Below are positions 27,002-36,426 of a DNA stretch of 64,000 nucleotides, in pieces. The first letter of the stretch is position 1, and the number at the start of each line of letters is the position of its first letter. This DNA is from Methanosarcina horonobensis HB-1 = JCM 15518. GTDB taxonomy: Archaea > Halobacteriota > Methanosarcinia > Methanosarcinales > Methanosarcinaceae. The notes under the pieces are model-generated. The model saw nothing but the letters and a program-made list of their open reading frames with translations. It made no database searches and had not been told where the DNA came from. The position numbers and the translations under genes are program-made. The stretch covers positions 1,157,036-1,221,035 of the forward strand of contig NZ_CP009516.1 in assembly GCF_000970285.1 (NCBI RefSeq), given 5' to 3'.

Positions 27002-27349
27002 ATATCATTTTTAAATGAAATGCTACCTGAAACCGCTGAAGCTTTCGGAAAGATGAGAAATTCCATTTTTAAAGACGCTTTTCTGGATCTCAAAACAAAA
27101 GAATTAATCGCTGTTGCTTCCTCAGTCCTTATGCGCTGTCAGTTTTGCGTTGATACGCATTCTCAAAGAGCCGTTGTTGCAGGAGCGACAAAGGAAGAGC
27201 TCGCAGAAGCGATTTCAGTTGCAATGTTTGTTGCTGCGGGTTCACAGATAGGATGGACAAACGTATATGAGGAAAATGTATACAACAAAATTTTTGAGAA
27301 GGATAAGGACGAGAAAGAAGAAGATTGCTGCTGTTGCTGTGAGGATTAA
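27002..27349 (+). CDS. Carboxymuconolactone decarboxylase/AhpD-like protein with five-cysteine tail
   Basis: 115 residues if begun at 27002. The CMD core has the redox motif CQFCVDTH (CxxC with a following His) and AVVAGATKEELAEAISVAMF (20), as in AhpD-like peroxide-defence proteins. The C-terminus is KDEKEEDCCCCCED: five consecutive cysteines, a likely soft-metal or arsenic ligand. Start choice: AGGAGGT (26989-26995) is seven bases before an ATA codon at 27002 that adds ISFLNE before the ATG at 27020, which itself lies 25 bases from the SD. An AUA start is therefore plausible. Neighbours are thioredoxin-like and arsenic genes. Confidence 0.8.
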   Translation: MSFLNEMLPETAEAFGKMRNSIFKDAFLDLKTKELIAVASSVLMRCQFCVDTHSQRAVVAGATKEELAEAISVAMFVAAGSQIGWTNVYEENVYNKIFEKDKDEKEEDCCCCCED

Positions 27350-27427
27350 TATTTGCATGTTATTTTCAAATTTTTCTGCATCTGTGTGATCTGGACAAGA
27401 TATTTATCTTGTTTATCATGTTTGAAT

Positions 27428-27447
27428 ATATCAACATATCTTGATCC
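27428..27447. promoter_or_regulatory. Candidate ArsR-type operator before the thioredoxin-like gene
   Basis: ATATCAACATATCTTGATCC keeps the half-sites ATATCAA and TTGAT with the same 6-base spacer as the perfect palindrome at 28955-28974. It lies about 55 bases before the GTG start at 27503. Confidence 0.35.
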
Positions 27448-27502
27448 CTACAATCATTTTTTGATATCATATAAAACAAAACCGATGATCAGGAGAATTA
27501 TT

Positions 27503-28057
27503 GTGAAACGATTGCATAGAATACAAGGTAAAAACCAAATTTCTTTTTCCATTTCAGCTATTTTTTTCTTAATTTTCTTCAGCTCAGGTTGCACGGATAT
27601 TAATGGTTCCGGTGATGAGACAGACCCTGTTGAAACTACAGCGAACGTTAATAATTCCGCTAGTGAGGCAGAATTGGTCGAGGTCACGAATCTGAGTCAA
27701 ATTGACCAAGCTCTTAATAAAGGGCCTGTTGTGCTGAAGCTTGGGTCTAAGGGCTGCATTCCCTGTCAAGAGCAGGAAGAAGTGCTTTCAGAGCTTCTTC
27801 CGATGTATCAGAATTCTGCTTCAATCATGCTTATTGATATCAAGGAACACCCCGAATTTGCAGCAACGTTCGGAGTAAGGGTCATTCCCGATACCTGTAT
27901 TATTGCAGGCATCGAGGACGGCAAATATATGTACATGCGGCCGGACGGAAGCAAAAGTTCGGAAAGGGCAAGTGCAAGGTTCCTGGGTGCTGCCGATAAA
28001 GAAACCCTTTCACAAACTCTTGAGAAAGCTATCGAATTCAGAAGTATAGAGGAGTAA
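27503..28057 (+). CDS. Thioredoxin-like lipoprotein
   Basis: 184 residues from a GTG at 27503, chosen because AGGAG lies seven bases upstream and the signal peptide then has normal length. Lipobox-like FFSSGC is followed by a Thr/Asn-rich linker. The thioredoxin fold has the active site KGCIPCQEQ (CxxC) and the cis-Pro loop GVRVIPDTCII. It would sit outside the membrane and reduce or exchange disulfides. It follows the AhpD-like gene and precedes arsR, so a role in thiol or arsenic stress is plausible. Confidence 0.8.
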   Translation: MKRLHRIQGKNQISFSISAIFFLIFFSSGCTDINGSGDETDPVETTANVNNSASEAELVEVTNLSQIDQALNKGPVVLKLGSKGCIPCQEQEEVLSELLPMYQNSASIMLIDIKEHPEFAATFGVRVIPDTCIIAGIEDGKYMYMRPDGSKSSERASARFLGAADKETLSQTLEKAIEFRSIEE

Positions 28058-28264: not shown

Positions 28265-28372
28265 CAATCCAGGGTCTCCTCTTTAATTATTAACAGCAAG
28301 TTCAACTTTTGGCTTTAGAAAATTATGGCTTTAGAAAAGTATATATATTTTTTAAATTCAATGGTTGTTGAT

Positions 28373-28675
28373 ATGATTGATGAAGAAAATATGCAGCTTT
28401 TCAAGGCCCTAAGCGAAGATACAAGATACAGAATTATCAAGGCTCTCCTCGAAGCTGAAAGCAAATGCAAGGAAGAAAGATGTGGTAGCCATAAGGGCGA
28501 ACTTTGCGCCTGTGAGATTCCGGAACTTATTGGTAAGACCCAGTCCAATACTTCAATGCACCTTGCAAAGTTGCAGGATTGGGGCATCATTAAAGTAAGG
28601 AAAGAAGGAAAGATGAGGCTATATTCCATAAACAATAACAAAGTTAGAAAGGTTTTGGAAATCCTTGAAGAATGA
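28373..28675 (+). CDS. ArsR-family winged-helix metal(loid) sensor
   Basis: 100 residues from the ATG at 28373; ATGs at 28361 and 28325 are in frame. A TATA box (TATATATAT, 28340-28348) predicts a start of transcription near 28368, which favours 28373 and a leaderless message. The wHTH reads LFKALSEDTRYRIIKALLEA ... TSMHLAKLQDWGIIKVRKEG (each 20). GELCACEI corresponds to the ArsR ELCVCDL metal site and further cysteines (SKCKEERCG) precede it. It probably represses the ars genes around it until arsenite or another soft metal binds. Confidence 0.85.
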   Translation: MIDEENMQLFKALSEDTRYRIIKALLEAESKCKEERCGSHKGELCACEIPELIGKTQSNTSMHLAKLQDWGIIKVRKEGKMRLYSINNNKVRKVLEILEE

Positions 28676-29037: not shown

Positions 29038-30009
29038 ATGGTTGACATATTCTATCTCCTTCAATGGATTGCTGACAAACTGACCTATGGAGTTTTTGGG
29101 ATTGCACCTGAAACTCATCTTGCAGCCAGTGTCAACTTTATCATTTACGATGTAATGAAAATTTTCGTCCTGCTGAGTATGATGATTTTTGTGATCTCAT
29201 ACATCAGGACCTACATAACCCCTGAAAAAACCAGAAGGGCTCTGGGAGGTAAGAAAGGGCTTCGATATCATTTTCTAGCCTCTCTTATTGGGACAGTCTC
29301 GCCGTTTTGTTCATGCTCTTCAGTACTCCTTTTTATCGGGTTTGTGGAAGCCGGAGTGCCACTTGGGGTTACTTTTTCTTTTCTGATCACCTCTCCTCTG
29401 GTAAATGAAGCGGCAGTCGCCGTGCTCTGGGCAACTCTCGGCTTTAAGGCAACAATTATCTATGTTGTGTCAGGAATTGTGCTGGGCGTTCTGGGAGGCT
29501 ATCTGATTGGGTTTTTGAAGCTGGAAAGGTATGTAGAAGATTTTGTCTATAAAATAAAAGTGGGACAGCAGAACACCGAACCTGAAAAAATAAGAATAAA
29601 GGAAAGGGCAGGCAATGCCTTTGAAGGCGTAAAGGATATTGTGGGAAAGGTATGGATCTACGTAATAATAGGAGTGAGCATAGGAGGTGTTTTCCATGGA
29701 TATGCCCCTGAAGGCATTCTCGAAAAATACGCAGGTGAAGACAACCTGCTTGCAGTGCCGATTGCCGTCCTCATTGGCGTGCCTCTTTACTCAAATGTTA
29801 TGGGCATGATCCCTATAGTCGAAAGCCTGATCGGAAAAGGACTCCCGATAGGAACCTCTCTAGCATTTCTTATGTCGGTTACTGCCGTCTCCCTGCCTGA
29901 GATGATTATCCTCAAAAAGGTGCTGAAAAAAGAACTGATCGCGATTTTTGTCTCAATCGTTGCTGTATCGATTATCTTTACAGGGTATCTATTCAATTTG
30001 CTGCTATAA
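29038..30009 (+). CDS. arsP: ArsP-type permease (COG0701/DUF318)
   Basis: 323 residues with about eight membrane segments in two halves. The first half has VSPFCSCSSVLLFIGFVEAG (20), the conserved Cys motif of this family, and SFLITSPLVNEAA; the second repeats the pattern around GVPLYSNVMGMIPIVESL. COG0701 members export trivalent organoarsenicals or act with thioredoxin-like proteins. GAAGGA lies seven bases before the ATG. In this place, between arsR and acr3, arsenic efflux is the best guess, but other substrates are known for the family. Confidence 0.8.
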   Translation: MVDIFYLLQWIADKLTYGVFGIAPETHLAASVNFIIYDVMKIFVLLSMMIFVISYIRTYITPEKTRRALGGKKGLRYHFLASLIGTVSPFCSCSSVLLFIGFVEAGVPLGVTFSFLITSPLVNEAAVAVLWATLGFKATIIYVVSGIVLGVLGGYLIGFLKLERYVEDFVYKIKVGQQNTEPEKIRIKERAGNAFEGVKDIVGKVWIYVIIGVSIGGVFHGYAPEGILEKYAGEDNLLAVPIAVLIGVPLYSNVMGMIPIVESLIGKGLPIGTSLAFLMSVTAVSLPEMIILKKVLKKELIAIFVSIVAVSIIFTGYLFNLLL

Positions 30010-30126: not shown

Positions 30127-30199
30127 AAATTCAAAATCTTCTAATATGTATTGAGATGCAGATTGAGTAAAACTGTAAGGATCATAGAGGACATTGATA

Positions 30200-30781
30200 A
30201 TGAAACCTGTAAAAAGCGGACTTGATTCCATTTCCAGATACCTCCGTACTAATAAAGAAGTCGGCAGGAGGAAAATAGGACTTCTGGTAGATGGACCGAA
30301 CATCCTCAGAAAAGAGTTTGATGTAAATCTTGAGGAAATAAGGGACGTTCTGAAGAGCTACGGAAATATCAAGATCGGGCGCGTTTTTCTGAACCAGTAC
30401 GCATCTGAAAAGCTTGTCGAGGCTATTGAAAACCATGGACTTGAGCCCATCATCTGTTCCAGTGATGTGGATGTGCGCCTTGCAGTAGAGGGCATGGAAC
30501 TGGTCTACAACCCCAATATAGATACCCTTGCAATCGTAACCCGAGATGCTGATTTCAAACCACTCCTGAACAAAGCAAATGAACACGGGAAAGAGACCAT
30601 TGTCTTTGGGGTTGAGCCCGGATTTTCCACAGCGCTCAAAAACTCTGCGGATTATGTCATTCTCATGGACAAAAAACGCATGAGTGGTTATGATGATGAA
30701 ATTGAAGAGAATAAACATAATGCTTCGGAGTTCGAAGACTATCAGAAAGACGAGTATGAAGAATCTGTGAAAAAGACCTGA
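30200..30781 (+). CDS. NYN-domain (LabA/DUF88, PIN-like) protein
   Basis: 193 residues from the ATG at 30200 (GAGGA eight bases upstream). IGLLVDGPNILRKEF is the first acidic motif of the NYN nuclease fold, VDVRLAVEGMELVYN the second and LAIVTRDADFKPLLNKANEH (20) the third, so the acidic metal-binding set appears complete. This is the TIGR00288-like archaeal branch. It could cleave RNA, but no target is known. The C-terminal ~35 residues are acidic and likely disordered. Its setting between two arsenic-efflux genes may be accidental. Confidence 0.8.
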   Translation: MKPVKSGLDSISRYLRTNKEVGRRKIGLLVDGPNILRKEFDVNLEEIRDVLKSYGNIKIGRVFLNQYASEKLVEAIENHGLEPIICSSDVDVRLAVEGMELVYNPNIDTLAIVTRDADFKPLLNKANEHGKETIVFGVEPGFSTALKNSADYVILMDKKRMSGYDDEIEENKHNASEFEDYQKDEYEESVKKT

Positions 30782-31067: not shown

Positions 31068-31182
31068 TATAATAATTCAGGTCTTTAAAACAAAAGACGG
31101 TTAGAAAACGAAGAAAGAAGTCTACCCTGATTTATTTTTTAGGTAGAGAACTTCATAAAACTTAAAAAAGGGAGTGGTTTTA

Positions 31183-32232
31183 ATGACCGAAGAAAAAAGA
31201 GATCTCGATTTTTTCAGTAAATACCTTTCAATCTGGGTTGCAGTCTGTATAAGTCTGGGGACAGCAGTAGGCTACATCTTTCCAGCTTTTGCAGACTCCC
31301 TAAGCAGGCTCGAAATAGCAAATGTTTCGATTCCTGTTGCAATCGTCCTTCTGATAATGATGTATCCCATCATGCTTAAAGTTAACTTTGAAGAAATTCT
31401 GAGGTTAAAAAGCAATTCAAAGCCTCTCACACTAACACTCATCATAAACTGGGCGATCAAGCCTTTCACAATGGCGATTATTGCCTGGTTCTTTATGCGC
31501 GTTGTTTTCTCGTCCCTTATACCGGTGGATCTGCAGACAGAATATATAGCAGGAATGATCCTGCTGGGTCTTGCTCCATGTACTGCAATGGTACTTGTCT
31601 GGACTTATCTTGCCAGAGGAAACATCAACTATGCACTCATCCAGGTTTCAGTAAACGACCTTATCATCCTCGTTCTCTTTGCCCCGCTTGGAAAGTTCCT
31701 TCTTGGAGTTACCACTGATTTCCCGGTACCCTTAATGACAATCTTTGTCTCTGTGCTTTTCTATGTAGCAATACCTCTTGGCCTTGCAATGCTGACAAGA
31801 TACCTTATTATAAGGAATAATGGCATCACCTGGTTCGAAAACACGATGATAAAAAAGATCGAATGGATAACGCCAGCTGGGTTATTAGTTACTCTGGTTC
31901 TTCTTTTCGTATTTCAGGGAGACAAAATTATCAATTATCCCCTACACATCCTCTTGATAGCTATCCCCCTTATAATCCAGACCTACCTGATCTTTGCTGT
32001 CGGTTATGTGGGAGCCAGAAAATTAAAAATTCCCTATCAGGAAGCAGCACCTTCGACTTTTATAGGAGCAAGCAATTTCTTTGAACTATCTGTGGCCGTA
32101 GCCCTTATCCTTTTCGGGATGGATTCTGGAGCAGCGCTTGCTACTGTTGTGGGGGTGCTAGTAGAAGTACCGGTGATGCTGTCGTTAGTTAAGATCATGC
32201 AGAAAAATAATACGAAATTTGTATGGACTTAA
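31183..32232 (+). CDS. acr3: Arsenite efflux permease, ACR3 family
   Basis: 349 residues, ten predicted membrane segments. LLGLAPCTAMVLVWTYLARG (20) contains the Cys essential in ACR3, and GASNFFELSVAVALILFG is the second conserved block. It expels As(III) from the cytosol. I use the ATG at 31183 (GGGAG eight bases upstream); a GTG at 31174 is also in frame. It is transcribed alone after a 400-base gap with an ArsR-like site. Confidence 0.92.
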   Translation: MTEEKRDLDFFSKYLSIWVAVCISLGTAVGYIFPAFADSLSRLEIANVSIPVAIVLLIMMYPIMLKVNFEEILRLKSNSKPLTLTLIINWAIKPFTMAIIAWFFMRVVFSSLIPVDLQTEYIAGMILLGLAPCTAMVLVWTYLARGNINYALIQVSVNDLIILVLFAPLGKFLLGVTTDFPVPLMTIFVSVLFYVAIPLGLAMLTRYLIIRNNGITWFENTMIKKIEWITPAGLLVTLVLLFVFQGDKIINYPLHILLIAIPLIIQTYLIFAVGYVGARKLKIPYQEAAPSTFIGASNFFELSVAVALILFGMDSGAALATVVGVLVEVPVMLSLVKIMQKNNTKFVWT

Positions 32233-32420: not shown

Positions 32421-32741
32421 ATGTCTGAATTTACTGTAAATTCTACTATCTGTGGTTTCGTTCACAAGATACACGGAAGCAAAAAAGGAAATAAAATAAT
32501 TGTTGACATAGAAACCCCATGTGAAAAGATAAAGAAATTCTCTCACATGGAAGTTCCCATGATGGAAATTCTGGATATCAAAAACAATTACGTTATCGAT
32601 AGAGCACAGGAAGCGCAGTGCTCCTCAAATTGCCTTGTTCCCTGCGCAGTACTCAATCTCTGCAGAATGGAGAGTGGCTTCCTTGCAAAATCTCTAGTAA
32701 AAAAAGCAGGTAGCATCAGTATAGAGTTTGATGAAGTTTAA
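32421..32741 (+). CDS. Cys-rich small protein, DUF6951-like
   Basis: 106 residues. STICGFVHKIHGSKKGNKII then a PCEKIKKF block and a C-terminal cysteine cluster CSSNCLVPCAVLNLC fit small methanogen proteins of the DUF6951 type (ICGF start, central C, late CxxxC pattern). Such a layout would bind a metal or Fe-S cluster; no function is established. It converges on the MtrA-like gene and the two share one bidirectional terminator. Confidence 0.65.
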   Translation: MSEFTVNSTICGFVHKIHGSKKGNKIIVDIETPCEKIKKFSHMEVPMMEILDIKNNYVIDRAQEAQCSSNCLVPCAVLNLCRMESGFLAKSLVKKAGSISIEFDEV

Positions 32742-32769
32742 AAAAGGAAGAATTTGCCTCCTTTTTTAA
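32738..32769. terminator. Bidirectional terminator between convergent genes
   Basis: TTAAAAAAGGA (32738-32748) and TCCTTTTTTAA (32759-32769) form an 11-bp stem with a 10-base loop. It includes the stop codons of both genes and gives a T-run on either strand. Confidence 0.75.
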
Positions 32770-33301
32770 TTTTGGACATTATATTCTGCTTTACAGATTC
32801 ATATTTCTTCCAGCTATGTTCATGAATTTCGGGCATGGAAAGTTCCGGGGCTTCGTTTCTTTCTTTTCCGCTGCAGGAATCGATTGCCTGCTGAATGACT
32901 GGGGGGTCGTTTGTCCCTACAAGGTCGATAACTTCAATTTCCCGGAGGAAGCGGGAGATTGCGGTCGCCGGAATTTCGTCAAGATAAGGAATCACTCCTT
33001 CGGATCCGATAATCTTTTTTGACCCTCCTAAAATCGAAATCCCGTTTTCGGCAAGTGCCAGCAGGGACTGCCCGGCGAAATGGTCACTTTCCTTCCCGCA
33101 AACAATAAGGCAGCTGATGTGAGGGTTCGAAAGCACATTAACTATTACCTTCTCAATCCCGAAATTTTCCGTAAAACAGGTTCCGCAGATGGCGTAGTTT
33201 TTCAGGTCCAAGCTTCGATAGTCGGAAGCAAGGGTTACTACTGCCACGGGAGATTTTGGGTCTCCTACTACGTAATCGCCGGAAGTTACAGGCCATCCCA
33301 T
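32738..33301 (-). CDS. Soluble paralogue of methyltransferase subunit MtrA
   Basis: 187 residues. The sequence follows the cytoplasmic corrinoid domain of tetrahydromethanopterin S-methyltransferase subunit A: YVVGDPKSPVAVVTLAS, NFGIEKVIVNVLSNPHISCL (20), VCGKESDHFAGQSLLALAEN (20; His74 matches the conserved MtrA His), IIGSEGVIPYLDEIP. The C-terminal membrane helix of true MtrA is absent. AAGGAG lies seven bases before the ATG. Stand-alone MtrA homologues are thought to bind cobamides and pass methyl groups; substrate and partner are unknown. It lies downstream of the Tus-like genes. Confidence 0.82.
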   Translation of the reverse strand: MGWPVTSGDYVVGDPKSPVAVVTLASDYRSLDLKNYAICGTCFTENFGIEKVIVNVLSNPHISCLIVCGKESDHFAGQSLLALAENGISILGGSKKIIGSEGVIPYLDEIPATAISRFLREIEVIDLVGTNDPPVIQQAIDSCSGKERNEAPELSMPEIHEHSWKKYESVKQNIMSKIKKGGKFFLF

Positions 33302-33574
33302 GTGAAAGCTCCTTTTCTGAGTAATTCTTCATGTTAAAAGGTTGTTTAGTTCACTTTCTGATAATTTATAATTTTCATTTAATGAGTTGTTAACTGAGAT
33401 ATTAATTTCTGTTTGACTTATAAAGTTGAGTTCCTGATGTTGAATGATTAGTGTGAAAACCGTCAGGCTCATTAAGCCGGCGCGCGCATTCTAATTCTTT
33501 AGCAACTTCAGGTGAGAGCTTTTCGACCATACAAGACTGTCAGATGATCCTTAATTTATTGTCTGCTACTTCAT
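33302..33574. other. Intergenic gap inside the sulfur/corrinoid cluster
   Basis: 273 bases with no gene. The promoter of the MtrA-like gene should lie here (minus strand), but I see no unambiguous TATA box. Confidence 0.4.
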
Positions 33575-33871
33575 TTAAAATGTGTATGCATGTTTACAGT
33601 TCTCCATCATATCCTCTATAAAAACAGCATAAAAGTTGTCTGGAATTATAACCTTTTCTCGGCCGCTTATAGCTCTAGCCTCAAGATCTTCCTGACAGGC
33701 ATAAACTGTGCATCCCGGCAGTTTCTGTATACCGGAAAGAAGGTTATAGACTCCATCTCCTGCAAGGTAAAGCCTGGCATTCTTGGAACGAACCGCCAGT
33801 TTAAGACACAATTCCGACCGCGGGCTGAATGGAGGTTTTGTCAACAGGAATATATCATATTCTTCTTGCAT
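33575..33871 (-). CDS. DsrH/TusB-like sulfur-relay protein
   Basis: 98 residues. It begins YDIFLLTKPPFSPRSELCLK and has RLYLAGDGVYNLLSG and CTVYACQEDLEARAISGREK (20) with a central Cys, the DsrH/TusB pattern. It ends a minus-strand trio with the TusC- and TusD-like genes; AGAGGT precedes the ATG. In bacteria the trio forms a hexamer that passes persulfide sulfur to tRNA or sulfite reductase; the archaeal use is open. Confidence 0.72.
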   Translation of the reverse strand: MQEEYDIFLLTKPPFSPRSELCLKLAVRSKNARLYLAGDGVYNLLSGIQKLPGCTVYACQEDLEARAISGREKVIIPDNFYAVFIEDMMENCKHAYTF

Positions 33872-33885
33872 ACTATTACCTCTTT

Positions 33886-34230
33886 TTAAAATAAGATGAC
33901 GGAGTCTGAGTTTTCCATTGCTTCCAGAAAATCCTCTTCATCGACAAGTTCTATGGTCTCTATCAGGGTTTCCCCAAAAAGCCCTCTCTCTATTAGTGAG
34001 GGTTCATGCACAAGTACTCTTAACTCTCCATATGAGTAGAGGATATCTGAAAGGTTTGGCATTCCAAGATTTGTGCTGTCCTGGTCAGCAGCTACAAGAT
34101 AAACCCCAGCTCCATAAAGGCCGAGAGTTACGTTCATTTCCGTAAGACTTACTGCAGCCGCATTTAGTGCTCCAAAGGCTTTTTCACTGCCATATGGAGC
34201 TGTATCCAGTAGATAGAGTATCGATTTCAT
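33886..34230 (-). CDS. DsrF/TusC-like sulfur-relay protein
   Basis: 114 residues. ILYLLDTAPYGSEKAFGALN (20), then VTLGLYGAGVYLVAADQD and LRVLVHEPSLIERGL give the DsrEF fold of TusC/DsrF. No cysteine is present, as is usual for the C/F subunit, which is structural. It lies 14 bases upstream of the TusB-like gene and 39 after the TusD-like gene. Confidence 0.78.
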   Translation of the reverse strand: MKSILYLLDTAPYGSEKAFGALNAAAVSLTEMNVTLGLYGAGVYLVAADQDSTNLGMPNLSDILYSYGELRVLVHEPSLIERGLFGETLIETIELVDEEDFLEAMENSDSVILF

Positions 34231-34269
34231 AGGAATCTGGATCTCACAAAAATCCTTGTTATTTCAACC

Positions 34270-34650
34270 TTATCTTGACAGTGAGATTACTTTGTCACTC
34301 TTATGCAACATTTCTGAAAGTTCATAAAGGCTGGAAATTTTTATTCCGGGAATGTAGTCTTCGCAGTTATTTCCATTAGCATTCTCTTCTTCTACAATGT
34401 AACCTCTTGCAGCAGCACACCGTGCACAGGCTCTGATTACAGCTCCTTTTTCTGCAAGCCCGGTGAAAAGTTCACCTGTATTGATAAAAAATGATGGACT
34501 CTGGCCTTTTTTGGGGATATGCACTGCATCCAGGTACAGGAATATATTCACCTGATATTGTTTAAGTGCGCCTTCGGCAAGTTTGCAGGCAATTTCAGCA
34601 TATTCGGAAATATAAGGGCCGTCGGTAAGTACAATAGTAAGCGTCTTCAA
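34270..34650 (-). CDS. DsrE/TusD-like sulfur-relay protein
   Basis: 126 residues from a TTG start with GGAGGA four bases upstream. LTIVLTDGPYISEYAEIACK (20), NIFLYLDAVHIPKKGQ and GAVIRACARCAAARGYIVEE (20) follow the DsrE/TusD fold; the Cys pair in ACARCAAARG matches the active-site cysteine region. It would carry a persulfide. First of the trio, 37 bases after the Fe-S regulator at 34688. Confidence 0.8.
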   Translation of the reverse strand: MKTLTIVLTDGPYISEYAEIACKLAEGALKQYQVNIFLYLDAVHIPKKGQSPSFFINTGELFTGLAEKGAVIRACARCAAARGYIVEEENANGNNCEDYIPGIKISSLYELSEMLHKSDKVISLSR

Positions 34651-34687
34651 AATTTCCTCCGAGTAAGTTGATTTTTGTTAACTGGGT

Positions 34688-35485
34688 TTAAATATAATTG
34701 ACCAAAACATGTAGACGCTCCTGATTACTTTTGTACTCCGGTTCTTTAAGAAGCGTACACTTTTCCAGAGAAGCCTGTCTGGCCATAAGCTTGATGGCAA
34801 AACTGTAACATCCTTGTTCGCCGCATTTGCCACAGTTGGTTTGGGGCAGGTGTTTGTAGATCTCCATCAGGTCAACCTTTACCTTTTCTCTGGGAGCTGG
34901 AGCTTCACCTTTTGCAATACCCTCATTGATAATACTCTTCAGTCTTTCAAGTTCTTCTTTAGCTTCATCCTCATTTTTGATCATCCTTATGATGACTTTC
35001 CCACTACCGTAAATAGTTGTGATGATTTCTCCTTTTTTAATTATCAAGCTATCTTTTCTATCTGAGTAATTACTTCTTGGAAAGAGGGGCTCCAGGAGTT
35101 TCAGGATTCCACCCAGAGATGGAGTCATATTTGCACTCACCCTGAGTCTTGAGGAATCAGCTATGCAGGGCAAAACCTGTCTGATCCTTGCAATCTCTAT
35201 TGGTTTTGCTTGAGAAAAGTCTACAGTTTTTTCCTCACTCTTTTCGGTTTTATTCTTAAGGAAATTCTTGCCATATTCGCTTAACTTTACGATTCCTTCT
35301 TCTAATTTAATCAGACCTGCCTGCTGCAATATTCTGAGATGAAAGTCAAGCGTTGCTTTCCCAACTATCTCTCCTATTTCCCCGGTACTTTTAGATCCGT
35401 TCGCCAGGAAGTTAATAATTTTCCGTCGGGTGCCATTGGCTATAGCAAAGCTTACGAGTTTTGTTTCATTCTGGTCTCCCGGCAT
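34688..35485 (-). CDS. Winged-helix regulator with C-terminal [4Fe-4S] domain (paralogue 1)
   Basis: 265 residues. Residues 1-75 form an ArsR-like wHTH (TRRKIINFLANGSKSTGEIG, FHLRILQQAGLIKLEEG). A middle domain begins at VLPCIADSSRLRVSAN. The C-terminus TNCGKCGEQGCYSFAIKLMA plus LEKC has the CxxC(x4)C(x~15)C layout of the Fe4 domain in CO dehydrogenase/corrinoid proteins. It probably senses redox or Fe-S status and controls the adjacent sulfur genes. It is followed by the TusD-like gene after 37 bases. Confidence 0.8.
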   Translation of the reverse strand: MPGDQNETKLVSFAIANGTRRKIINFLANGSKSTGEIGEIVGKATLDFHLRILQQAGLIKLEEGIVKLSEYGKNFLKNKTEKSEEKTVDFSQAKPIEIARIRQVLPCIADSSRLRVSANMTPSLGGILKLLEPLFPRSNYSDRKDSLIIKKGEIITTIYGSGKVIIRMIKNEDEAKEELERLKSIINEGIAKGEAPAPREKVKVDLMEIYKHLPQTNCGKCGEQGCYSFAIKLMARQASLEKCTLLKEPEYKSNQERLHVLVNYI

Positions 35486-35628
35486 CTTAACACCTGTCGA
35501 AGCTATTCCTGCAAGGTAATCTCTTACAGTAACATTAATATATTCGGAGATATGGCATGGAGCTGCCAGTTAACACTAAAGTTAGCGTCTTAAAAATCTC
35601 GGTTTAATGAATTTTTCATAAAACCGGT

Positions 35629-36426
35629 TCAGATGTACGCACACAGGACCTGCAGTTGCTCGAAATTGGTTGCATATTCCGGTTCTTTGAGAGGTGTGCA
35701 TTTGTCCAGGGTGACCTCCCCTCCCATGAGTTTTATAGCAAAGGTATAGCAGCTCTGCTCACCGCACTTGCCACAGTTGGTCTGAGGCAGGTATTTGTAA
35801 ATTTCCATAGGTTCTACCCTGACTTTTTCCCGCGGGGCTGGGACAACTCCTTTTACTGTGGCTTCATTGATAGTATTCTTCAAGTTCTGGAGAGAGTCTC
35901 TGGCTTCACCTTCACTTCTTATCATTGTCATGGTTACCTTTCCGCTACCATAAATGGTTGTAATAACCTCTCCTTTTTGAATTATCAGGGCGCCTATTTT
36001 GTCCGAATATTTGCCTCTGGGAAAAAGTGGCTCAAGAACCTTGAGGGTTCCACCCAGGGGAGGAGCTATATTTGCAATTACCCTGAATTTTGAGGAATCA
36101 GCTATACAGGGTAATAGCTGTCTTACTTCAGTAATTTCTATTGGTTTTGCCTGAGAGAGATCTGCAGTTTTATCCGCACCTTTCTCTTCTTTCTCTTTAA
36201 GGAAATTCTTACCATATTCGCTTAGTTTCACAGTCCCTTCTTCGATCTCAATCAGACTTGCCTGTTGAAGAAGCTTGAGATGGAAATCAAGCATGGTCTT
36301 CCCTACTTCTCCTCCAATTTCTTCGGTACTTTTGTCTCCTGTCGATAAAAAGTTCATTATCTTTCTTCGAGTAGTGTTGGACATAGCGTTGTTTACAAGC
36401 TTTATCTCATTAGGATTTCCAGGCAT
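35629..36426 (-). CDS. Winged-helix regulator with C-terminal [4Fe-4S] domain (paralogue 2)
   Basis: 265 residues, the same length and domain order as its neighbour at 34688: wHTH (TRRKIMNFLSTGDKSTEEIG), middle domain (LLPCIADSSKFRVIANIAPP), and Fe4 domain TNCGKCGEQSCYTFAIKL with a fourth Cys in LDKC. The two arose by tandem duplication and have diverged mostly in the surface helices. A 143-base gap separates them, so each may have its own promoter. Its target genes are unknown. Confidence 0.8.
   Translation of the reverse strand: MPGNPNEIKLVNNAMSNTTRRKIMNFLSTGDKSTEEIGGEVGKTMLDFHLKLLQQASLIEIEEGTVKLSEYGKNFLKEKEEKGADKTADLSQAKPIEITEVRQLLPCIADSSKFRVIANIAPPLGGTLKVLEPLFPRGKYSDKIGALIIQKGEVITTIYGSGKVTMTMIRSEGEARDSLQNLKNTINEATVKGVVPAPREKVRVEPMEIYKYLPQTNCGKCGEQSCYTFAIKLMGGEVTLDKCTPLKEPEYATNFEQLQVLCAYI

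Follow-up and report, generated by a model that had tools for sequence, protein, structure and literature searches.

What brings together, between positions 32421 and 36426 of a 64,000-nt window of Methanosarcina horonobensis HB-1 = JCM 15518 (NZ_CP009516.1; all positions below are coordinates in this window), two Fe-S regulators, a sulfur relay, a corrinoid-type protein and a Cys-rich protein? We read the stretch, with a probability of about 50%, as part of a mosaic island for arsenic(-metalloid) detoxification in Methanosarcinaceae, with a relay for sulfane sulfur and a cobamide-based methyl carrier.

Gene content of the locus

Profile matches confirmed the seven open reading frames and the families assigned to them in the preliminary description. 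Two tandem regulators, each combining an ArsR-like winged helix-turn-helix (wHTH), a TBP-like part and a [4Fe-4S] domain, lie on the minus strand (copy 1 at 35629..36426, PF04060 3.2e-13 and alignment; copy 2 at 34688..35485, PF04060 1.2e-12, HTH_5 7.4e-8). They are followed on the same strand by a TusD/DsrE-like sulfurtransferase subunit (34270..34650, 126 aa, PF02635 1.6e-16), a TusC/DsrF-like subunit (33886..34230, 114 aa, PF02635 1.2e-9) and a TusB/DsrH-like subunit (33575..33871, 98 aa, PF04077; TIGR03011 51.4 bits, cut-off 49.2). Gaps of 37, 39 and 14 bp make regulator copy 2, TusD, TusC and TusB one unit, whereas the gene for a soluble MtrA paralogue (32738..33301, minus strand, 187 aa, PF04208 7.6e-44) stands separately, 274 bp beyond TusB. 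A DUF6951 protein (32421..32741, plus strand, PF22263 3.5e-22) converges on the MtrA gene, with overlapping stop codons.

The preliminary description had missed the arsenic genes that lie in the same island just outside these boundaries, all on the plus strand: an ACR3 arsenite efflux transporter above its cut-off (31174..32232; TIGR00832 381.6 bits, cut-off 282.8), an ArsP_1-type permease (29038..30009; PF03773 1.2e-68) and an ArsR/SmtB-family regulator (28325..28675; HTH_5 5.5e-11). The NCBIfam models nearest to the permease, SaoE and SO_0444, both scored below cut-off, so methylarsenite export by PF03773 permeases of this kind is putative. Further out lie a thioredoxin-domain lipoprotein of the island (27353..28057, plus; PF00085 2.1e-6) and a carboxymuconolactone decarboxylase-like protein that recurs in the island (27020..27349, plus; PF02627 2e-20). 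Neither ArsM nor ArsC adjoins the modules inside the 64-kb window, and the ArsM of this genome lies outside it (C1:911797); ArsM, ArsC-like and ArsA proteins are present in the islands of relatives. Among the islands of relatives and of the window we also observed the thiol-redox proteins Trx3, DGC, CcdA and thioredoxin lipoprotein.

A deletion junction between two modules

What looks like one cluster of seven genes is the meeting point of two separable modules, the first comprising both regulators and TusD-C-B, the second comprising MtrA and DUF6951. The intergenic region between TusB and MtrA is chimeric in blastn comparisons: its first ~134 nt match the junction in relatives between TusB and f7, a ~94-aa Cys-containing protein encoded after TusB (L111, L113, L114), and the final ~140 nt match sequence upstream of MtrA in relatives where that gene does not adjoin TusB (L112, L113, L114, L128, L147). 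The f7 gene, intact in L111, L114, L117 and L120, survives in the window as a truncated remnant (33402..33530, minus strand), of which tblastn with intact f7 recovered only residues 1-21, a 21-codon stub at 33530-33468. The breakpoint lies within 33433..33467. Because the region is chimeric and f7 is cut to a stub, the tight TusB-MtrA adjacency is a deletion scar and not a conserved arrangement. The upstream region at 33302..33433 (minus strand; 83-87% identity in relatives) is probably MtrA's own promoter.

Elsewhere the modules are 2-8 kb apart, or just one is present: TusDCB with the wHTH regulator occurs without the island-type MtrA clade (for example in G001, G014, G021 and G025), and this clade occurs without TusC (for example in G037, G043, G054, G058 and G088). 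The preliminary description had treated the genes as one cluster and had itself named independent occurrence among relatives as the outcome against its pathway; the genes do all adjoin in the window, but the modules are found independently in relatives.

Arsenic genes around both modules in relatives

An arsenic context is strongly supported for both modules. In genomes of one or two contigs, 11 of 13 TusC copies had ACR3 or ArsM within 20 kb (0.3 expected), as did 8 of 9 copies of island-clade MtrA (0.2 expected), with the significance of both counts inflated by relatedness. A marker (PF03773, ACR3, ArsM, ArsC-like or ArsA) was found within 7 kb of TusC in 32/38 fetched copies, which are redundant between related genomes, and an ars-type marker within 7 kb of DUF6951 in 42/44 copies. 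Counting against this association, the ACR3 or ArsM nearest to TusC is 338 kb away in G029 and 93 kb away in G025, and island-clade MtrA relatives in G026, G040 and G053 lie outside ars islands.

Several lineages carry the arsenic context in operon form. In another family of the class, locus L264 reads ArsR, rhodanese, ACR3, wHTH-FeS regulator, TusD, TusC, TusB on one strand; L267 and L269 resemble it, and L266 reads wHTH-FeS regulator, TusD, TusC, TusB, ArsC-like, ArsM, also on one strand. At these other-family TusDCB loci ACR3 (450 bits) and ArsM (347 bits) exceed their cut-offs, and ArsC-like falls below the equivalog cut-off. A third family (L204, L205) has the TBP-FeS part without wHTH, adjoining ArsM, and L205 also has a small thioredoxin and a DGC protein. 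For the second module, arsM immediately precedes MtrA in the same orientation in L115, L116 and L117, acr3 is upstream in L112 and L177, and a Methanolobus locus (L195) runs ArsR-ArsM fusion, permease, phosphoesterase, Trx, DGC, MtrA, f45, wHTH-FeS regulator, ACR3.

Regulators and the sulfur relay

Both regulators are 265 aa long. The HTH_5 match of copy 2, weaker in copy 1, and the best Foldseek matches of the regulator model, which were archaeal TBP and ArsR/SmtB repressors, identify an ArsR-type winged helix; a TBP profile matched the middle of the proteins below threshold. The AlphaFold2 model, good enough to use only in its wHTH and TBP-like parts, gives the middle domain of copy 2 a b-a-bbbb-a order (pLDDT 57-74). 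The HTH domain carries no ArsR/SmtB-type Cys metal or arsenic site, having no Cys before residue ~107 in the alignment, and the invariant Cys (PC, CxxC, C, C) all lie in the TBP-like/FeS part. The earlier interpretation stands in part: its gene assignments hold and the regulator, whose copy 2 is the first gene of the TusDCB unit, is plausible as an Fe-S protein (PF04060), but the pathway it was thought to control is unsupported.

The DsrE/DsrF/DsrH-fold trio keeps the D-C-B order (PF02635, PF02635, PF04077), with TusD and TusC below their equivalog scores (37.8 bits, TIGR03012 cut-off 89.25; 40 bits, TIGR03010 cut-off 94.15). An invariant CxxC (C75, C78) occupies the persulfide-Cys position of TusD in the alignment; from its motif position we take C75 to correspond to the E. 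coli active-site Cys. Neither TusE/DsrC (PF04358) nor MnmA (TIGR00420 above cut-off) was found in any of 15 genomes, which makes it unlikely that the relay serves tRNA thiolation as Tus does, a reading we rejected. One TusA-family gene lies at 4.18 Mb, remote from the cluster.

The MtrA paralogue and DUF6951

The MtrA paralogue is a member of its family by profile (NF002126 267.7 bits, cut-off 161) and scores below the TIGR01111 cut-off (149 bits against 249). Cobalamin in MtrA is held by the lower-axial His84 together with Glu54, Asn55, Thr53, Tyr18 and Asn64 (PMC4915002), and the window protein has Y10, T44, E45, N46, N55 and H74. It has also gained a CxxC (C39, C42), which like C68 and the His is present in 29/29 aligned orthologues. 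The clade is separate from MtrA and MtxA (100/100 support, branch 1.8), with 44-47% identity to MtxA-like paralogues. The protein stops after the soluble domain without a C-terminal transmembrane anchor, and a search for the mtrEDCBAFGH operon found no other mtr genes nearby; on these grounds we rejected a duplicate Mtr Na+ pump. Its position outside the MtxA/MtrA group disfavours an Mtx-type role in CoM methylation.

A second, non-island clade (<=74% identity) keeps the CxxC and has copper-type P-ATPases or SAM methyltransferases as neighbours, and some non-island copies have Ala in place of Glu54 (G013, G028, G029). For 19 of the 27 copies with identities under 74%, the surrounding 7 kb hold no ars marker, so arsenic may not be the sole or original partner of this protein.

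DUF6951 has six invariant Cys in the alignment. Its AlphaFold2 model is poor (mean pLDDT 46), and a PDB sequence search returned no relative.

Proposed function and alternatives

In the island that we favour, which would confer arsenic resistance, the regulator is predicted to sense arsenic damage to thiols or Fe-S clusters and to turn on the TusDCB relay, whose TusD CxxC would carry sulfane sulfur for detoxification. Most simply, this sulfur would pass to trivalent arsenic to give thioarsenic species for export; alternatively, it would restore Fe-S and thiol proteins hit by arsenic. The soluble MtrA-fold protein, predicted to bind cobamide beside its CxxC, would carry a methyl group to or from arsenic, with DUF6951 as its convergent partner in the second module. 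As ArsM in those operons already provides for methylation, MtrA is predicted more likely to take methyl groups off methylarsenicals. In its full form the proposal is an anaerobic arsenic pathway of Methanosarcinaceae: the CxxC-MtrA would exchange methyl groups between cobamide and arsenic, so linking arsenic (de)methylation to methanogenesis, TusDCB would thiolate arsenic for export, and a new wHTH-TBP-[4Fe-4S] regulator would control both. This form is tentative and rather improbable. Against the favoured reading, neither an MtrH-like protein nor another partner methyltransferase was seen in the island.

Arsenic attacks thiols, and the same genes might serve repair, with TusDCB resupplying persulfide sulfur to damaged Fe-S clusters and thiols and MtrA, as a thiol protein with cobamide, buffering redox state or sensing it instead of transferring methyl groups. 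The Fe-S regulator and the thiol-redox proteins named above are found together in these islands, and MtrA and TusD each carry a CxxC. The MtrA gene is repeatedly linked directly to arsM, which encodes a methyltransferase, and the cobamide-site residues are retained; both points speak against this reading, which we regard as possible but doubtful. It is unlikely that unrelated stress genes simply gathered in a variable resistance island with no common arsenic function: island order and content do vary strongly between species in a rearranged mosaic, the junction in the window is a scar, and the MtrA protein has a clade outside the islands, but separate families and genera (L195, L264, L266, L267) repeat these linkages in compact operons on one strand, a pattern that one hitch-hiking event would leave unexplained. 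The meeting of methylated sulfur compounds or persulfide with a corrinoid protein in one pathway under Fe-S control, as originally proposed, found no support and is very improbable. The modules adjoin in this single window and the DsrE-type and corrinoid-type assignments hold, yet the modules lie apart in relatives, their adjacency is a scar, their neighbours are arsenic genes, and we recognised no methylthiol methyltransferase of the Mts/RdmS type among the annotated neighbours.

Comparison with known systems

Like the cytoplasmic MtrA homologues described by Wagner et al. 2016 (PMC4915002), the paralogue is a soluble Rossmann-type domain without membrane anchor, and it keeps equivalents of His84, Glu54, Thr53, Asn55, Tyr18, Asn64 and Val61. 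Unlike them, it has an invariant CxxC with Cys at position 48, where the MtrA and MtxA compared have A, T or W; its His loop is one residue shorter, its clade is separate and its context is an arsenic operon. Methanogens demethylate arsenic to methane in rice paddies, and in enrichments 13C-dimethylarsenate yielded 13CH4; methyl transfer from arsenic via a corrinoid protein has been proposed, and the available portions of these reports name no gene, describe the enzyme behind the step as not known, and give Methanomassiliicoccus as the active isolate (PMC6776024, PMC10579292). A pure culture of a Methanosarcina mazei isolate, not known to carry the island MtrA, demethylated neither DMAs(III) nor DMAs(V) (PMC10579292), which counts against an arsenic-methyl role of the paralogue. 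Encoded immediately after arsM and next to acr3, a cobamide-type protein is a concrete candidate for arsenic demethylation to methane.

The relay resembles TusBCD/DsrEFH, known from tRNA thiolation and Dsr sulfur oxidation, in its three adjacent D-C-B genes and conserved TusD Cys, and differs in having no TusE/DsrC and no MnmA above cut-off in the 15 genomes, in the extra Cys that makes a CxxC, and in its operons with acr3, arsC-like and arsM. In Thioalkalivibrio, arsenite alters the expression of DsrE/F-like sulfurtransferase and B12 synthesis genes (PMC6620896); unlike the present case, these are transcript data from sulfur-oxidising bacteria, and the accessible part of that report gives no acr3/arsM operon and leaves the role open. 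We found no arsenic-thiolation enzyme described in methanogens, and a persulfide relay in operons with acr3, arsC-like and arsM would open the biological thiolation of arsenic to genetic study.

Searches of the literature on MtrA and arsenic, DsrE and ars operons, and thioarsenate and sulfurtransferases turned up neither module, and no report was found that treats TusDCB, the wHTH-TBP-FeS regulator, MtrA or DUF6951 as ars components. With ars operons (ACR3, ArsC, ArsM, ArsP) the island shares ACR3 in the window and ArsM, ArsC-like and ArsA in relatives; it goes beyond them in carrying TusDCB, the wHTH-TBP-FeS regulator, a cobamide-type MtrA and DUF6951. The presence of either module in arsenic operons appears new to the literature found, and suggests sulfur and methyl chemistry by which arsenic would be handled.

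Gene organization of the window and separation of two modules

Profile searches of the window upheld both the positions and the family assignments previously given for the seven genes, which lie in a Methanosarcina-type genome consisting of a single 5.02-Mb contig. On the minus strand, the second wHTH/TBP-like/[4Fe-4S] regulator (wHTHFeS), TusD, TusC and TusB follow one another with gaps of 37, 39 and 14 bp; the gene for the soluble MtrA paralogue lies 274 bp beyond TusB, and the DUF6951 gene is convergent with it. Directly beside this cluster are genes for a carboxymuconolactone decarboxylase-like protein, a thioredoxin lipoprotein, ArsR, a PF03773 (ArsP-type) permease and the arsenite efflux pump ACR3, with an NYN-domain (putative nuclease) gene (30194–30781, + strand) between the ArsP-type permease and ACR3.

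The tight seven-gene cluster is a deletion scar. TusB in relatives is followed by f7, a Cys-containing protein of ~94 aa, of which only the first 21 codons remain in the window (33530–33468); the intergenic DNA after this stub is the MtrA upstream stretch of other genomes whose MtrA does not adjoin TusB, and the switch from one to the other falls within 33467–33433. Genomes G002, G007, G015 and G020 share these genes in one common orientation, and there regulator–TusDCB is set apart from MtrA by ArsR, ACR3, permeases or a hydantoinase-like gene. Because of the scar and these intervening genes, the two modules are separate units, and MtrA retains its own upstream region. TusDCB-wHTH was found without this MtrA clade (e.g. 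G014, G001, G021, G025), and this clade without TusC (e.g. G037, G043, G054, G058, G088); independent occurrence of this kind is what the preliminary description gave as refuting its pathway.

A second arsenic island in the genome of the window (L111, G000:C1:797000-815000) carries an intact wHTHFeS-TusD-TusC-TusB-f7 run with ACR3 and permeases, and adjoins Amt/GlnB genes. An IS1634-type transposase gene interrupts the island MtrA gene of G029, a genome of 4,533,209 bp (L118:7520-9791), and a hydantoinase_A-like 642-aa protein (f25; L114:5198-7126) recurs beside MtrA in islands L113, L114, L116 and L146.

Arsenic context in relatives

Very probably, the context common to both modules is arsenic. 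Across 40 compared loci of relatives, the modules lie within mosaic islands with ArsR, PF03773 permeases, ACR3, ArsC-like LMW phosphatase, ArsM, ArsA, small thioredoxins and DGC proteins. Among 1–2-contig genomes, ACR3 or ArsM was within 20 kb of TusC for 11 of 13 copies (0.3 expected), of island-clade MtrA for 8 of 9 (0.2 expected) and of the second MtrA clade for 0 of 4, a proximity whose nominal significance is overstated because the genomes are related.

Recurrence of the linkages in other lineages weighs more than these counts. Within f6, a family of the same class outside Methanosarcinaceae (suspected to be Methanotrichaceae), locus L264 reads ArsR–rhodanese–ACR3–wHTHFeS–TusD–TusC–TusB; L267 and L269 are arranged similarly, and TusD is not called as a gene in L268. 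In a second genus of f6, wHTHFeS–TusD–TusC–TusB–ArsC-like–ArsM occupy a single strand (L266), an arrangement that L265 resembles without a clear ArsM. Methanolobus sp. M17C (L195) carries, on a single strand, an ArsR-ArsM fusion, PF03773 permease, phosphoesterase, Trx, DGC, MtrA, f45, wHTHFeS and ACR3. The TBP-FeS part also occurs in a third family (f3), where it lacks the winged helix and lies directly behind ArsM and f22 (L204, L205). More distant members neighbor PF03773 permeases, ACR3 or TauE-type permeases.

The Methanolobus fusion, an ArsR-type repressor and ArsM in one gene (L195:6257-7336, +), is the first gene of its arsenic operon. The stand-alone TBP-like/[4Fe-4S] family, which has no DNA-binding domain, adjoins ArsM, PF03773 permeases or ACR3 in other archaeal families (L204:9566-10111, L205:7342-7899, L273:9242, L274:8183).

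Regulator, sulfur relay and DUF6951

The regulator has three parts: an ArsR-type wHTH, a middle domain of beta-alpha-beta4-alpha topology, and a four-Cys [4Fe-4S] motif of the CFeSP/AcsC type. In structure comparison the middle domain matches archaeal TBP best. Its HTH has no arsenic-binding Cys; since the conserved Cys sit in the TBP-like/FeS part, sensing is probably located there.

TusD has an invariant CxxC in the alignment, and both TusD and TusC score under equivalog cut-offs. Across 15 genomes TusE/DsrC was absent and no MnmA matched at cut-off, and a TusA-family gene is located elsewhere in the genome (4.18 Mb). TusDCB is thus unlikely to be the tRNA-thiolation system and would act as no more than a persulfide relay. 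A small archaeal genome (L271:8239-9301) has a distant TusB-TusD-TusC trio whose TusD carries the CxxC (41%), with no arsenic neighbors recognized.

DUF6951 aligns with six invariant Cys and has ars-type markers within 7 kb for 42 of 44 copies, including some in genomes that yielded no copy of the MtrA clade (e.g. L179, L180). Its AF2 model is poor; the protein probably has an accessory role in which it binds a metal(loid) or Fe-S.

The MtrA paralogue

In the tree, the orthologues form a fully supported, long-stemmed clade distinct from MtrA and MtxA, and a conserved-motif scan of one genome per species (~85,000 species) found it only in Methanosarcinaceae-type genomes. Aligned to the cobalamin-bound structure (PMC4915002), our reference for cobalamin-site residues, island copies retain Tyr18, Thr53, Glu54, Asn55, Val61, Asn64 and His84. 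Cys at position 48 and Cys51 form an invariant CxxC; 29/29 aligned sequences have both of these residues and a further Cys ahead of the His loop, which is C68 in the window protein. The corrinoid ring is positioned over the loops following strands beta2 and beta3 (PMC4915002), and because these loops hold the three Cys by alignment, a thiol or arsenic site next to cobalt is plausible.

Non-island (clade B) copies adjoin HMA-type P-ATPases and CpaM-like SAM methyltransferases, and of the 27 MtrA copies below 74% identity, 8, mostly Methanolobus-type, have ars-type markers nearby. CxxC-MtrA copies outside islands (L135, L171, L172, L187, L191, L202) have as neighbors a P-type ATPase of ~960 aa (HMA-type where tested) and a CpaM-like or generic SAM methyltransferase, with arsenic genes absent nearby.

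Proposed mechanism and comparison with known systems

Arsenic detoxification that combines a relay for sulfane sulfur with a cobamide-based methyl carrier has, as a whole explanation, a probability of about 0.5; it builds on directly observed gene content, operon context and conserved residues, on the lack of Tus partners and on the separateness of the modules, and the committed chemistry alone merits far less confidence than the arsenic context. TusD persulfide would thiolate arsenic or resupply sulfur, the MtrA paralogue, loaded with cobamide, would move a methyl group in a presumed direction, and the regulator would respond to a presumed signal. Methyl transfer off arsenic is a possible direction, favored because ArsM already covers methylation, and would fit the reported conversion of 13C-dimethylarsenate to 13CH4 by methanogens, to which no enzyme has been assigned (PMC6776024); however, the island holds no dedicated methyltransferase partner, and pure cultures of a M. 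mazei isolate are reported to have shown no such activity (PMC10579292).

Three of the elements are already known individually: cytoplasmic MtrA homologues, TusBCD/DsrEFH and ars islands. A literature search limited to open-licence papers, in which a negative outcome counts for little, found no report of a Tus-type relay or MtrA-type protein within ars operons. The nearest precedent is Thioalkalivibrio, in which expression of DsrE/F and B12 genes is reported to change under arsenite (PMC6620896).
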